The notes under the pieces were generated by a model. It had not been told where the DNA came from, made no database searches, and saw only the letters and a program-made list of their open reading frames with translations. From Liolophura sinensis (Eukaryota > Mollusca > Polyplacophora > Chitonida > Chitonidae): 64,000 nucleotides of DNA. This document shows, in pieces, positions 12,001 through 18,000 of the stretch (the stretch's first letter is position 1; each line of letters starts with the position of its first letter). Made by a program: the position numbers and the translations under genes. The stretch covers positions 800,169 through 864,168 of the forward strand of contig NC_088297.1 in NCBI RefSeq assembly GCF_032854445.1. The letters are read 5' to 3'.

Positions 12001-15000
12001 CTAACACTTTGTTCAACACTGATTCTATTATACAATACACAAACTCAGGAATTCAGTAATTTATGGTACTTAATATGTACACACGGAATCAACCCTTGTG
12101 CTATTGTGCTCTACATGTATGCAAACCCTGAATCAATGATGGGAATACCCCCATTCTGCTTTTCTGCTCTACAACAACATGTGTGCAAATTCTGAGCTCA
12201 ATACTTTTTGATATGCTTGCAGTACTTTTTGAGACACCACCGCTAACATTTTATTTAACATTGTTTTTCCTGACAGGTTACATGTAAATACTGTGGGGAG
12301 AGCTACACATATATGATCACCAATACAGGGGTGGTAAAGTGGTGGTACAGTGGTGGTAAAGTTGTGGTAAAATTGTGGTAAAGCTGTGGTAAAGTTGCGG
12401 TAAAGTGGTGGATAAACTTGTCGTAAAGTGGTGGTTAAAGTGGTGGTTAAAGTTGTGGTTAAAGTTGTGGTAAAGTGGTGGTAAAGCTTTGGTAAAGTTG
12501 TTGTAAAGTGGTGGTAAAGTGGTGGTTCAAGTTGTGGTAAAGTGGTGGTTAAAGTTGTCATTAAAGTGGTGATAAAGCTGTGGTAAAGTGGTGGTAAAGC
12601 TGTGGTAAAGCTATGGTAAAGCTGTGGTAAAGTTGGACACAGACCCCCATTACAACTTCCGTTTTTCGGTAGGGACGATTGTAGTTCTGTGAATTTTAGG
12701 GTATAAAGTCTTTTTTTGCTCCCAGGCGTCCATTTTTGGTGCACAGGTGCATGCTTGGTATTAAAATGCTGGAAACTGTCTAAACTTTGAGGAGGTATGA
12801 GCTTTATTGATGAAAGTTTGAAACTCTGGGCGAGAGGACACAAGGTGTGAGGTAGTGATGAGGCTGCGAGTGACGTCCCCTTGGCGTTGCTAGGCACGCC
12901 TCCCAGCTGCCGGCATGGAAAGGTCCAGATTTTGACGGTCAACCTATGTCAAGATTTTTATGGCTTCTTTCTCACAGGCTGGGCCAGGTATGCACCAAAG
13001 CTTATTGGCCACGGAATGTTTGGGACTGAGCTACAGTGCTAGACGTTAACATTGTCGCTTATGGAAAATTAATGGGGGTCCGAGGCCTGTACTGACGAAG
13101 TCACCAAAATGTGAAAAATGTCACTATGCGCTTAGATTTCGCAGCAGCCTGATAATTTTTGGTGGGTATGTCTGTGATGTGTTTTGCATTGATTGAGCCG
13201 TTTTATAGCTTCTTGGGGCTATTTATTTTTTGAAAATATCCATTTTGATGAAAAATCGGTAAAATGCTGTTCAGTGTAGGGTAACATGTGTATAGGCATC
13301 CTGAAATGAACAACATGCAACGTTCTAGTATTCCTACGCTTGAAAATGGAGACGTTCAGAGCAGAAATTGCTGCAAAAATTGAAAGTTTCAGTGTTTATA
13401 ACGAAAACGGAGCCTGTCGAGTGTGGACTGGACCATTGACGAGAGATGGTCGATATGGCCTTGCCTCCTACAAAGACCCCGTCACACATCGATGGAAGAA
13501 GAAATACATCAGTAGACTTGTTTATATGGCCAGACAGGGGCTGTCACATTTAGATCCCAAGCTTGATTGTGCCACAACACACGCTGTGTAAATGTGGACC
13601 ACACAAGCTTGGAACCGCATTGTGTTAACAATAACAGGCAGCGCTGCTGCAACGTAGGGCGCTGTCTCGGCCATGGGCAGTATGCAAGGTGCATGCTGCA
13701 TTTAAGACTGAGCAGGTTGGTTTCCCCTCATTAAAAATAATAAATAACAGATGTGTTTCAGATTTTGCTCAATTTCTGTCATCATTTTTTAATTTCTTTC
13801 ACAAGCGACAACAGCAGTGACAAATTTTATACAAAACTGGCGGTTACAAATATCTAGCGTATGTGTGATCTGTTGGGGTGTTGTCCAGTTGTCCCTTGGC
13901 ATAGTCAGTTTTCTCTTCTGGATTTGAAAGCCTGTACTCAATGTGCTCTCGGAGTTTTCTGGCTGTATTGCGGAGTGATCTCCCCTTAACTGTCTGTCGC
14001 TTCTTATAAACCTTGTGGTACTGGTTCACCCTTTCAATCTGTTGTACTGTTTTCTCGCTCCTAGGTGAAATACTGGCGCCGACAGCTTGGAGTTTGGCAG
14101 CCGTGGACTTGTCCTGGCCATTGTTAAGTCTGTGGATTGTGGACGCCGCCCTTCCCTCCATATTTCTGCTGTAGGTTACATTCTTGGGCAAGGAGACGCT
14201 GAGTGATCTGTTGACAGCTTCGCACTTTTGAGTGCTGGTGTTCATCCGGAGACTGGTGACGGCTGTCTCGCTCAACCTCATGTGCAGTACTTCGGTCAAT
14301 AGTTTCCTGTCGTTGTCATCCATGTTGAAAGGGCAGAGTTTACTGGCGGATAAAAACAGGGATCTCTCCCACCAGCTGCTGGTTTCCCCTCCGGAGCAAA
14401 CCACACTGTTCCTGCGGCATTTGGAACAGTCCCCACCGTAACACCTGACCGTTGCATCCACAACCCTGGGTAGGTAAGCTTTTATTTTCCTTATGTCACC
14501 AATGTGCTCAGACATAAGTTGAGAAAATATCAAGCTACACCTGGCCTTAACATCCTGACTCAACACCTTCTGTGCTTTCTTCCTGGCTTCCCTCGTTCGG
14601 CCCTGTCCTTCAAACATGGCATCGCTGAACTTAGCCTGGTTACATTTCTTGAACTGGGATCTACCAAGGTGCGTGGGGTCTGCTAACCGTTCGACCTCCC
14701 ACAGTGGCTCGACCAGTCGGATGCTGTCCTCCACTCCCTTGGCTGACCTGGAGTCGCCGTCCGTGGTTACGTGCTTGGCTAAAACACCTTGCCTCGCCAA
14801 TCCCTCGCCAATCTCGTTCCCCATATTATACTCGGACCAGGGGGCATGTGGGTTTGTGTTCGCTGTGCACTCCTCGTGTCCTCCAGGGCACTTTACTTGG
14901 AAGCCTTTTCCTCTCAGCCAGGACCCAGTCCAACACAATTTATTCTTCAGTGCTGCGGAGACAATGTATTGCTTGTCTGTTGATGTCTCCACTGCCAGGG

Positions 15001-18000
15001 AAATGGCTTGTGAAGCATTCTGGCCCGGTTTCTTGGGACTGGTTATGGTAATGCTGTTGTAGCGAGTGTCTGTGGCCAGATCTATTGTGCTGTCATCCTC
15101 TCCTCTTTGCCTTTTGTATGCCTTTACCTCTTCCACCTTATTTGCCATATCCTCTCTGTTCAGCTTTGCGATTGCAGATGCGACATGGTTTGCAGTGCGA
15201 TGCATGTTCCTACGAGTGGCAGGCGGCACGTCCATCGCTGCAAATAGGAGTCTGGCTCGGGTGTTCCCCATTGGTGTGTCCTGGAGGCCTACTTGAAGAG
15301 CTCGGTTCACCGCTGCAGCTTTTTGGCCAGGTCTGTTGCATTCTACCTCTTTGTAGAATTTGTGGAAGCCAGATACATAGTCACAGTCACAGCACTTAAA
15401 ACTGAACGCCCAGGCTAAACCCCACTTTTTCTCTGCAGCTATCTCTAACCTGGGCAGTGGACAGTGGTCCTTGGTCTCACTGTGCTCAAGCATAACTTTG
15501 TTCCATATACACACCATTTTCTGTATGTCTATGAGTCGCATTCCTTCAGCAGCCCATTCCCGCTCATGGGTATCTCTGTCTGATCCAGCCGTGGAATCTA
15601 CCTTGCACCGTCTTGGCCGCTGTATTCTCTTTGTGTCAGGCTGGTGTGTTCTTACAGCCTCCTGATTGGGCTGGAAATCTGTGTCCATCAAGGAACACCC
15701 AGGCAGAGGATTCAGCATGTCTGTAACTGCTGACAGGTTATTTGAGCGATCCTGGGCCTTTCCAGCTTGAAATCTAGACTGTTTCCTCTTTCTGTCTCCC
15801 TTCATTGTGTTTTGGGGTAGATTGTTTGCCTTGTTAACTGTCAGACTGACCAATATAGGTGTACTTGGTGGCTGCCTGATTGGAAATGTTAAATTCATAT
15901 TTTTCCTCTCTGTTTATATGTTGTAGATGCCAATGTGACACCCTTTGATGTGACTGTGTAGAGTAATAACCTGCTGTGAGACAACAGCAATGGTGCAGGG
16001 AGGTTTTTGCATGGTGAGGTGGTCAGCCAATCAGCAGTCATGGGGGAGGAGGGCAGGGGGGGGGGATGCCTGGCTGGGTGGTCTTTTAAAGGGTTTCATC
16101 ATGCTATTCAGTGGGGAACTGGGATACTAGTCTTTTCTTAAGTCCTGTCCACTAAAAAAGTGCCTGTGAGTAGGTCTTCATCACCTTGAGGCATTATTCT
16201 TGCTTTGATTTTGGTCACAAATGATTGTTCCGAAATCGTGACAATCCGCTTTGATACCCCCTACCACACTGTCAGTCAATTTTTTTCACATAGTTGCTGA
16301 AGTAAATGTCTTATATTTTGACATTTAATTGTCAGATAAATTGCCTATATTTTGATGTATGCTTTGACACTTTTGGTTTGTAACTTTCATATTTAAAGCT
16401 GCTCTGAGTAGAAAAGTCTTCTTAAAAATGTATATTTCTCTAAATGGTTGCTTTTGAAAAGTCTAAAGTGCTCTGTCAATGTGATTTTTTTAACTTTTCT
16501 TGCAGATAAACATCTTGTCTTTCCAAAACAGTTGACCTGATGGAGATATCTTGAACGGTATATGCACTGCAAAGCTTCAAAGTTTACCCTTCAGAGTTTT
16601 TTCACCCTGAAAAAAAGACACATGTCCAAGATGGGGGTACCCCAACTTGAATTCATTCAACTCCAAAGTTTCTGCATGTATCAAGCCCTAATTTTGCCTG
16701 TGAGGTTCAGAAGTGTCAGGAATTGTGTGGTGCAAAAATTATTGATTTTGAAAAAAGGTGGCTGGTGTGATAGGACACAGACCCCCATTACAACTTCCGT
16801 TTTTCGGTAGGGACGATTGTAGTTCTGTGAATTTTAGGGTATAAAGTCTTTTTTTGCTCCCAGGCGTCCATTTTTGGTGCACAGGTGCATGCTTGGTATT
16901 AAAATGCTGGAAACTGTCTAAACTTTGAGGAGGTATGAGCTTTATTGATGAAAGTTTGAAACTCTGGGCGAGAGGACACAAGGTGTGAGGTAGTGATGAG
17001 GCTGCGAGTGACGTCCCCTTGGCGTTGCTAGGCACGCCTCCCAGCTGCCGGCATGGAAAGGTCCAGATTTTGACGGTCAACCTATGTCAAGATTTTTATG
17101 GCTTCTTTCTCACAGGCTGGGCCAGGTATGCACCAAAGCTTATTGGCCACGGAATGTTTGGGACTGAGCTACAGTGCTAGACGTTAACATTGTCGCTTAT
17201 GGAAAATTAATGGGGGTCCGAGGCCAGTTGTGGTAAAGCTGTGGTAAAGCTGTGGTAGAGTTGTTGTAAAGTTGTGTTAAAGCTGTGGTAAAGCTGTGGG
17301 AAAGTGGTGGCAAAGCTGTGGTAAAGTGGTGGGTAAAGTTGTGGTAAAGAACTACACCAGATGAGTTATGAATGATAAAGACCAAGACGGATGAAAAGGA
17401 TTTCCTAAATTATGAAGAGAAAACATTTCTTTCAAAAACTTCCACATTCTTGGCAGTGCCTTTCAAGATTGTGCAACAGTGCTGCCCTTTGGGCAAAAGC
17501 AATAAACAAAATGAAGTAGTCTCCGCTTACCTTGCCATCCCCACAGACCACATAGAGGGAGCCCCACTCACTGACCACATCCACCACTTCCGGGAACGGA
17601 GCTGAGTAACCTATAAACTTGTTCTGTATGTCATACACAGTCACAATATTCATCTCCCTGGACTGACCAGCTCTGCAAACATGTAACGTTAGGAGCAAAA
17701 TCAAACACATTGCCAACAAAACTGGCAGATAATCAGACTTTTTCCATCCCACACATTTGTCAAAAGCTGGAGTGTGATACGTGGTGAAGATCAGTGGGTT
17801 TCATCCAGCAAGCCACTGGTTTCCTTCATACACCCTACCGGCCCGGATAGCACAGTTGGTAGAGCGTCCGCTTCGGGACCGGTAGATTCAGGATCAATCC
17901 TTGATCGAGTCACACCTAAGACTTTAAAAGAGGAAGTTGTAACTTCCTCGCTTGGCGTTCAGCATGAAGGGGATAGTGCAACGACTGGTTGACCCGTATC

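Follow-up and report, generated by a model that had tools for sequence, protein, structure and literature searches.

Matched long terminal direct repeats in a KolobokP-type DNA transposon of the chiton Liolophura sinensis

A 64,000-nucleotide stretch of the Liolophura sinensis genome (assembly GCF_032854445.1, contig NC_088297.1, positions 800,169 to 864,168; hereafter the window) carries a transposable element framed by two 453-bp repeats in the same orientation. We call these repeats the long terminal direct repeats (LTDRs) and the sequence between them the interior (INT). The two LTDRs, which an earlier note on this DNA had described as identical from the letters alone, agree at 453/453 positions, and the match ends exactly at both edges. 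The 18-bp imperfect inverted repeats that it reported at the outermost ends are 83% complementary, and they are additionally present on each LTDR taken by itself. Both LTDRs begin with GG and end with CC, and the INT, which begins TGTACTG, holds one long open reading frame, on the minus strand. The insertion site is a AGTTGTGGTAA-like minisatellite with a period of ~11 bp (12327–12634 and 17226–17369). The element is flanked on both sides by AGTT, as the note had said, but because the flank is an 11-bp minisatellite this duplication is weakly informative alone; it is the 4-bp duplications of other copies that settle the insertion.

The long frame encodes a DDE transposase (PF20700, E = 1.4e-77) with its motifs in the expected order: D, CCHC, D, DPTH, Cys cluster, E. 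The motif patterns were written after the protein had been seen, which makes this a consistency check, and the residue roles follow the portions of PMC9587614 drawn on here. On the opposite strand of the INT, a relic of an I-PpoI-like endonuclease gives a His-Me finger match (E = 0.0018) that lies under the family cut-off. A Pfam search of all six frames of the INT, with E up to 1, returned only PF20700 and the weak endonuclease relic, and no reverse transcriptase. The view that this is a DNA transposon with long direct terminal repeats, and not a retroelement, is supported. Calling the transposase Mutator-like was right as to its DDE type, but that name is a Pfam label: judged by its ends, the length of its duplications, its endonuclease and the order of its motifs, the element belongs with the Kolobok superfamily. 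MuDR elements make target-site duplications of 8–11 bp, in contrast to the 4 bp seen here.

Table 1. Features of the element, numbered from the first nucleotide of the window
Feature	Position	Strand	Remarks
Left 4-bp target-site duplication, AGTT	12631..12634		weak alone, minisatellite flank
Left LTDR, 453 bp	12635..13087	+	identical to right LTDR
Left inverted end of left LTDR, 18 bp, GG start	12635..12652	+	pair I5
Right inverted end of left LTDR, 18 bp, CC end	13070..13087	-	pair I5
INT, 3685 bp	13088..16772		sequence between the LTDRs
I-PpoI-like endonuclease relic; frame stops after 81 aa, His-Cys motif in another frame	13346..13734	+	127-aa open frame in relatives, L009 among them
DDE transposase, 684 aa from first Met; open frame of 689 aa to 15913	13844..15898	-	PF20700
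Right LTDR, 453 bp	16773..17225	+	identical to left LTDR
Left inverted end of right LTDR	16773..16790	+	pair I6
Right inverted end of right LTDR	17208..17225	-	pair I6
Right 4-bp target-site duplication, AGTT	17226..17229		weak alone, minisatellite flank

The earlier note took this anatomy for an undescribed class of element. We reject that claim, because KolobokP, a rare Kolobok lineage described in 2022 from seven animal phyla (Kojima & Bao, Mobile DNA, PMC9587614; all comparisons are with portions of that paper), has the same features and was matched in every one tested. It shares the layout LTDR-INT-LTDR, with repeat lengths that cluster at ~450 or 660 bp (453 bp here). Each LTDR has its own inverted ends of up to 18 bp (18 bp here) with termini 5'-RR and YY-3' (GG and CC here), and target-site duplications are 3–5 bp long (4 bp here). 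The DDE transposase has a C/DxxH motif, one zinc finger after the first D and another before the E, and the INT encodes, on the strand opposite to the transposase, an I-PpoI-like His-Me nuclease, which is broken in the window copy. Solitary LTDRs (solos), multimers of the form (LTDR-INT)n-LTDR with outer duplications, and non-autonomous families are likewise common to KolobokP and our element. We conclude that the element is almost certainly a KolobokP-type DNA transposon. It departs from KolobokP as described in the broken nuclease frame of the youngest of its subfamilies sampled, in a preference for ANNT targets (those portions of PMC9587614 report no strong target preference), and in having no exact INT-INT junction, a kind of junction that they take as a sign of repeat excision. 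They do not settle how KolobokP maintains both repeats, nor the part, if any, that a circle plays.

The same arrangement recurs in the 609-Mb host assembly, for which each whole-genome pattern count was paired with a reversed-pattern control. A DNA search with the element, in which the best 40 of 2070 candidates were scored, showed many repeat pairs ~4138 bp apart. Pattern counts gave 74 left LTDR-INT junctions (≤2 mismatches; control 0), 217 INT-right LTDR junctions (≤3 mismatches; control 0), 470 right LTDR ends (≤2 mismatches; control 0) and, for a decayed, non-autonomous sister family, 123 left junctions (≤3 mismatches; control 2). Searching the genome with PF20700 yielded 117 matches; scores were obtained for 114 of 172 candidates. 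Because the arrangement is found at many independent loci with differing flanks, we reject an assembly artefact.

Of the 25 full copies in which both repeats are complete, 20 are flanked by perfect 4-bp duplications: 14/19 in a first set that includes the window copy (20 whole copies were fetched, and L005 and L010 were dropped for an incomplete left repeat) and 6/6 among further pairs. Such duplications also flank 18/20 copies of the sister family and 45 of 52 two-ended solos (17/20 in a first set and 28/32 in a second, which numbered 36 before L102, a right repeat and no solo, and L106, L112 and L115, not two-ended, were removed). Full copies and solitary repeats with such duplications, for both of which the earlier note had proposed a search, are abundant, and none of the copies examined, apart from the solo repeats, had only ordinary inverted ends. 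Among these 83 duplications, the first position is A in 67 and the fourth is T in 68, and ANNT fits 52/83. The LTDR ends in the copies examined are GG and CC nearly throughout (GA at the left of p08), and their inner junctions are constant except for single-base changes. With one outer duplication shared and the inner junctions constant, we reject two separate 453-bp insertions as the origin of each copy. The earlier note came to the same result from the lack of duplications at the inner junctions, but that argument is weak: a composite, once it had moved again as a whole, would show none there either.

A manual count assigned 54 out of 100 listed exact right ends to solos; they were called against the junction lists, the transposase positions and fetched loci, and part of the 54 was fetched. 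Across 51 solos and the 25 full copies we found 11 recurrent variants, each in at least three sequences. Three are confined to solos, with three carriers apiece. Solos and full copies have the main subfamily variants in common, although one of these, T247, occurs much more often in solos (21 vs 3). An independent lineage of solos as miniature inverted-repeat transposable elements is not supported. At one locus, L060 (C5:434900-436750), a solo has been duplicated in tandem together with the DNA around it, giving two solos with the same flanks at a distance of 1154 bp.

The LTDR pairs bear on how the element moves. Were monomers simply to move as units, daughter copies would show a change that arose in one repeat on the corresponding side alone. 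We compared the pairs of the 25 autonomous full copies and of 19 of the 20 sister-family copies (p14, L087/L088, was left out for its altered right repeat but retained in the duplication count above). In the autonomous family the two repeats of a copy differ on average at 1.68 positions, against ~4.6 between copies; 13/25 pairs have no difference at all, and random re-pairing reached the observed sum in 0/20000 trials. The sister family behaves alike, with 2.42 differences within and ~8.1 between copies (re-pairing 0/10000). Variants private to one copy were found in both of its repeats 14 times and in one repeat 39 times (17 left, 22 right) in the autonomous family, and 21 and 41 times (22 left, 19 right) in the sister family. 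The left/right balance of these one-sided singletons is what drift after insertion would be expected to give.

Variants shared between copies are mostly matched as well. Four of the six in the autonomous family and nine of the 13 in the sister family are present in both repeats of every carrier. The remaining autonomous variants comprise one with two one-sided carriers among 13 (C9c and L007) and one that is one-sided in two copies; the remaining sister-family variants comprise three with a single one-sided carrier each (p13, p15 and p12) and again one that is one-sided in two copies. Both variants that are one-sided in two copies are doubtful as cases of one-side inheritance: one abuts an alignment gap and the other is a CpG change across different subfamilies. 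The five single one-sided carriers may reflect recurrent or back mutation. Altogether, 48 variants are matched in every carrier (13/19 of the shared ones, one with 12 carriers), and there is no convincing case of transmission through one repeat only.

Two simple routes fare badly against these data. Plain cut-and-paste of the composite, with no renewal and with identity a sign of youth only, accords with the whole monomers bearing fresh 4-bp duplications, but it should hand one-sided variants to daughter copies, and the 48 matched variants face no convincing case of that kind; we regard it as extremely improbable. Alternatively, homologous recombination of a circle with a solo LTDR already in place could restore the complete element (Fig. 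5b1 of PMC9587614). Solos are abundant and no transposase would be required, yet the chimaeric LTDRs would differ by about the between-copy distance and the observed pairs differ far less, which makes this route very improbable. Both are disfavoured as main routes because both leave mismatched pairs. The paired-repeat test instead speaks for the descent of both repeats from a single one when the element transposes, and the LTDRs were very probably homogenised before or at insertion and drifted apart later. The earlier note had guessed at a DNA-based renewal like that of retroelement repeats, and this guess passes the test on the 44 pairs.

The pairs could also have been homogenised afterwards, by gene conversion at the insertion site following cut-and-paste of a monomer. 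The direct repeats lie ~4 kb apart, conversion could account for the 35 private variants that a copy carries in both of its repeats, and some older-looking copies carry both kinds of variant (one-sided/matched: L001 7/2, C8b 6/3, p15 9/3, p16 5/3, p10 3/3). Two other old-looking copies, however, have many one-sided singletons and no private matched variant (L007 11/0, p08 7/0), and 13/19 shared variants are matched throughout their carriers, with no patchy distribution. On this evidence in-place conversion is quite unlikely as the source of the matched pairs. We also set matched and one-sided variants against the state of the open reading frame (ORF) as a measure of age: copies with an intact frame had 9 matched and 15 one-sided variants (20 copies) and those with a disrupted frame had 5 and 24 (5 copies; p = 0.12).

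The LTDRs are far more conserved than the rest of the element. In 151-bp comparison windows, LTDR identity is 90–97% between the autonomous family and a sister-family copy on C2 and 88–94% against an array on C7, while INT windows adjoining the LTDR are 72–76% identical between the families and those beyond are mostly lower or unalignable. From these alignments the LTDR as a whole, and not its tips alone, seems to be the functional unit, being either constrained or exchanged in one piece.

Multimers offer another source of matched repeats. The array on C9 has five LTDRs and four INTs, and those on C3 and, in the sister family, on C2 have three LTDRs and two INTs; in each a single duplication encloses the entire array, as it does in a fourth, partly deleted multimer on C6. 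In the C9 array one CpG site separates LTDR1 from LTDR2-5 and the four INTs are identical, a pattern best read as unequal crossover in place. If unequal crossover builds such arrays, the transposase could excise an inner LTDR-INT-LTDR unit with matched repeats and no circle would be needed. The existence of these arrays, each with one outer duplication, and the C9 change common to LTDR2-5 but absent from LTDR1 speak for such donors. By coordinates, though, only 4 of ~42 autonomous-family left-junction loci on C1–C9 are chained (C3, C5, C6 and C9, with C5 taken from coordinates alone and the remaining loci partly confirmed as complete monomers), and yet inherited variants are mostly matched; a single unequal crossover, moreover, homogenises units only in part. 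Multimer donors are thus an unlikely general source, though one to be reckoned with.

We tentatively favour, short of holding it probable, a route through a circle with one LTDR followed by replicative copy-in. If the paired LTDRs of a copy recombined, a circle of one LTDR and the INT (453 + 3685 = 4138 bp) would be released, and a solo LTDR with its target duplication would stay behind. The transposase would then act on both inverted ends of the circle's single LTDR and join their 3' ends to the target, ANNT-like in sequence, at points staggered by 4 nt. Copying of the LTDR as the joint is resolved would complete an LTDR-INT-LTDR element whose LTDRs are identical and whose 4-bp duplication is new, and multimers would arise in place through unequal crossover. 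The LTDR would then be the transposon proper, the INT a passenger, and the whole element a cointegrate, with both LTDRs renewed from one at every transposition by DNA alone; this is a possibility that we hold no more firmly than the route itself. We favour the circle because it needs no special donor and because solos are explained as sites that circles left. The clustering of published LTDR lengths at ~450 or 660 bp would also be sensible if both ends of one repeat must pair.

The model for this route is bacterial. In translocatable units and pseudo-composite transposons of IS26 and the IS6 family, a circle with one end unit integrates by copy-in, and direct repeats come to flank the cargo. 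The likeness is to the proposed mechanism only, and we claim no common ancestry: the transposase lies within the repeated insertion sequence there and within the INT here. Bacterial composite transposons differ in the same way, with the transposase in the flanking repeats. IS26 is mentioned in the portions of PMC9587614 used here.

Several points weigh against copy-in from a circle. The circle itself, the choice of ends and the replicative step are all inferred. Multimer donors, as on C9, could supply homogenised pairs too, and the five one-sided carriers at four shared variants could be chimaeric pairs. The ORF-age comparison that would speak against gene conversion is not significant (p = 0.12). 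Nucleotides at repeat edges that match the start of the INT would betray a circle or multimer donor, and those found are rare and short and make a weak sign: the first 20 solos have a suggestive T in L030 and L037 and an ambiguous TGT in L033, and the second set has no clear case.

At L017, TGTACT, the first six bases of the INT, follows the right repeat, and no duplication matches at the edges; this right end may have been left by a multimer or by a cut in the wrong place. Exact gapped genome patterns, which would miss mismatched junctions and had no positive control, found neither INT-INT junctions nor directly abutted LTDRs. A suspected INT-INT site on C12 was rejected, as a normal repeat is present there.

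To our knowledge, textbooks give reverse transcription as the sole way in which direct terminal repeats are renewed, and the element could have been copied as a long terminal repeat (LTR) retroelement by proteins acting in trans. It resembles LTR retrotransposons in repeats that appear matched at insertion, in later one-sided drift and in its solos, and 4-bp duplications would fit an integrase. LTR retrotransposon repeats, however, end TG..CA and come with a TGG-type primer site. Here the ends are GG..CC with 18-bp inverted repeats, no TGG-type primer site follows the left LTDR, the INT frames contain no reverse transcriptase domain, and the element has a DDE transposase of its own. We give this explanation next to no credence.

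The endonuclease can be judged from related copies. In relatives its frame is open over 127 aa (PF05551, E = 6.8e-08), and the product matches I-PpoI weakly (E = 0.011) with the equivalents of H98 and N119 kept (manual count). In the subfamily of the window copy the frame is cut at 81 aa and the motif is out of frame in 9/9 copies whose interior was read (window, L002, L003, L008, L011, L014, L016, L017 and L019). This is the youngest group sampled, with its own repeat pairs differing by at most one base, and eight of the nine copies encode the full 684-aa transposase (612 aa in L016). The element is active-looking. Because the youngest subfamily sampled lacks an intact nuclease frame, neither insertion nor the matching of the repeats requires the nuclease in cis, which restricts any need for it; supply in trans from open-frame copies is possible. 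The frame is mostly open in the sister subfamily of the broken-nuclease group, and the C9 and C3 multimers fall outside that group.

The paired-repeat test bears on the question of repeat maintenance left open for KolobokP, and disfavours simple cut-and-paste as the main route. We did not find a test of repeat inheritance in the portions of PMC9587614 used here, and literature searches gave no other paper on KolobokP elements. If renewal of the LTR kind does occur in an animal DNA transposon, matched terminal repeats would be no proof of reverse transcription, and repeat divergence could date DNA insertions too.

The sister family also forms non-autonomous, satellite-like tandem arrays with a period of ~2.9 kb, at G000 C7:32930488-32969298, at C26:281222-313155 (at least 12 left junctions) and on contigs C321 and C587. 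Elsewhere in the same genome, L138, L139 and L140 encode a PF20700 transposase like that of the window element, with a second match for L138. No LTDR-like pair surrounds the gene within the 5.5–6.2 kb regions searched, and the frame tested from L139 had no family match. All three are possibly other Kolobok lineages. At one edge of its region, L139 has a tandem array with a period of ~78 bp.

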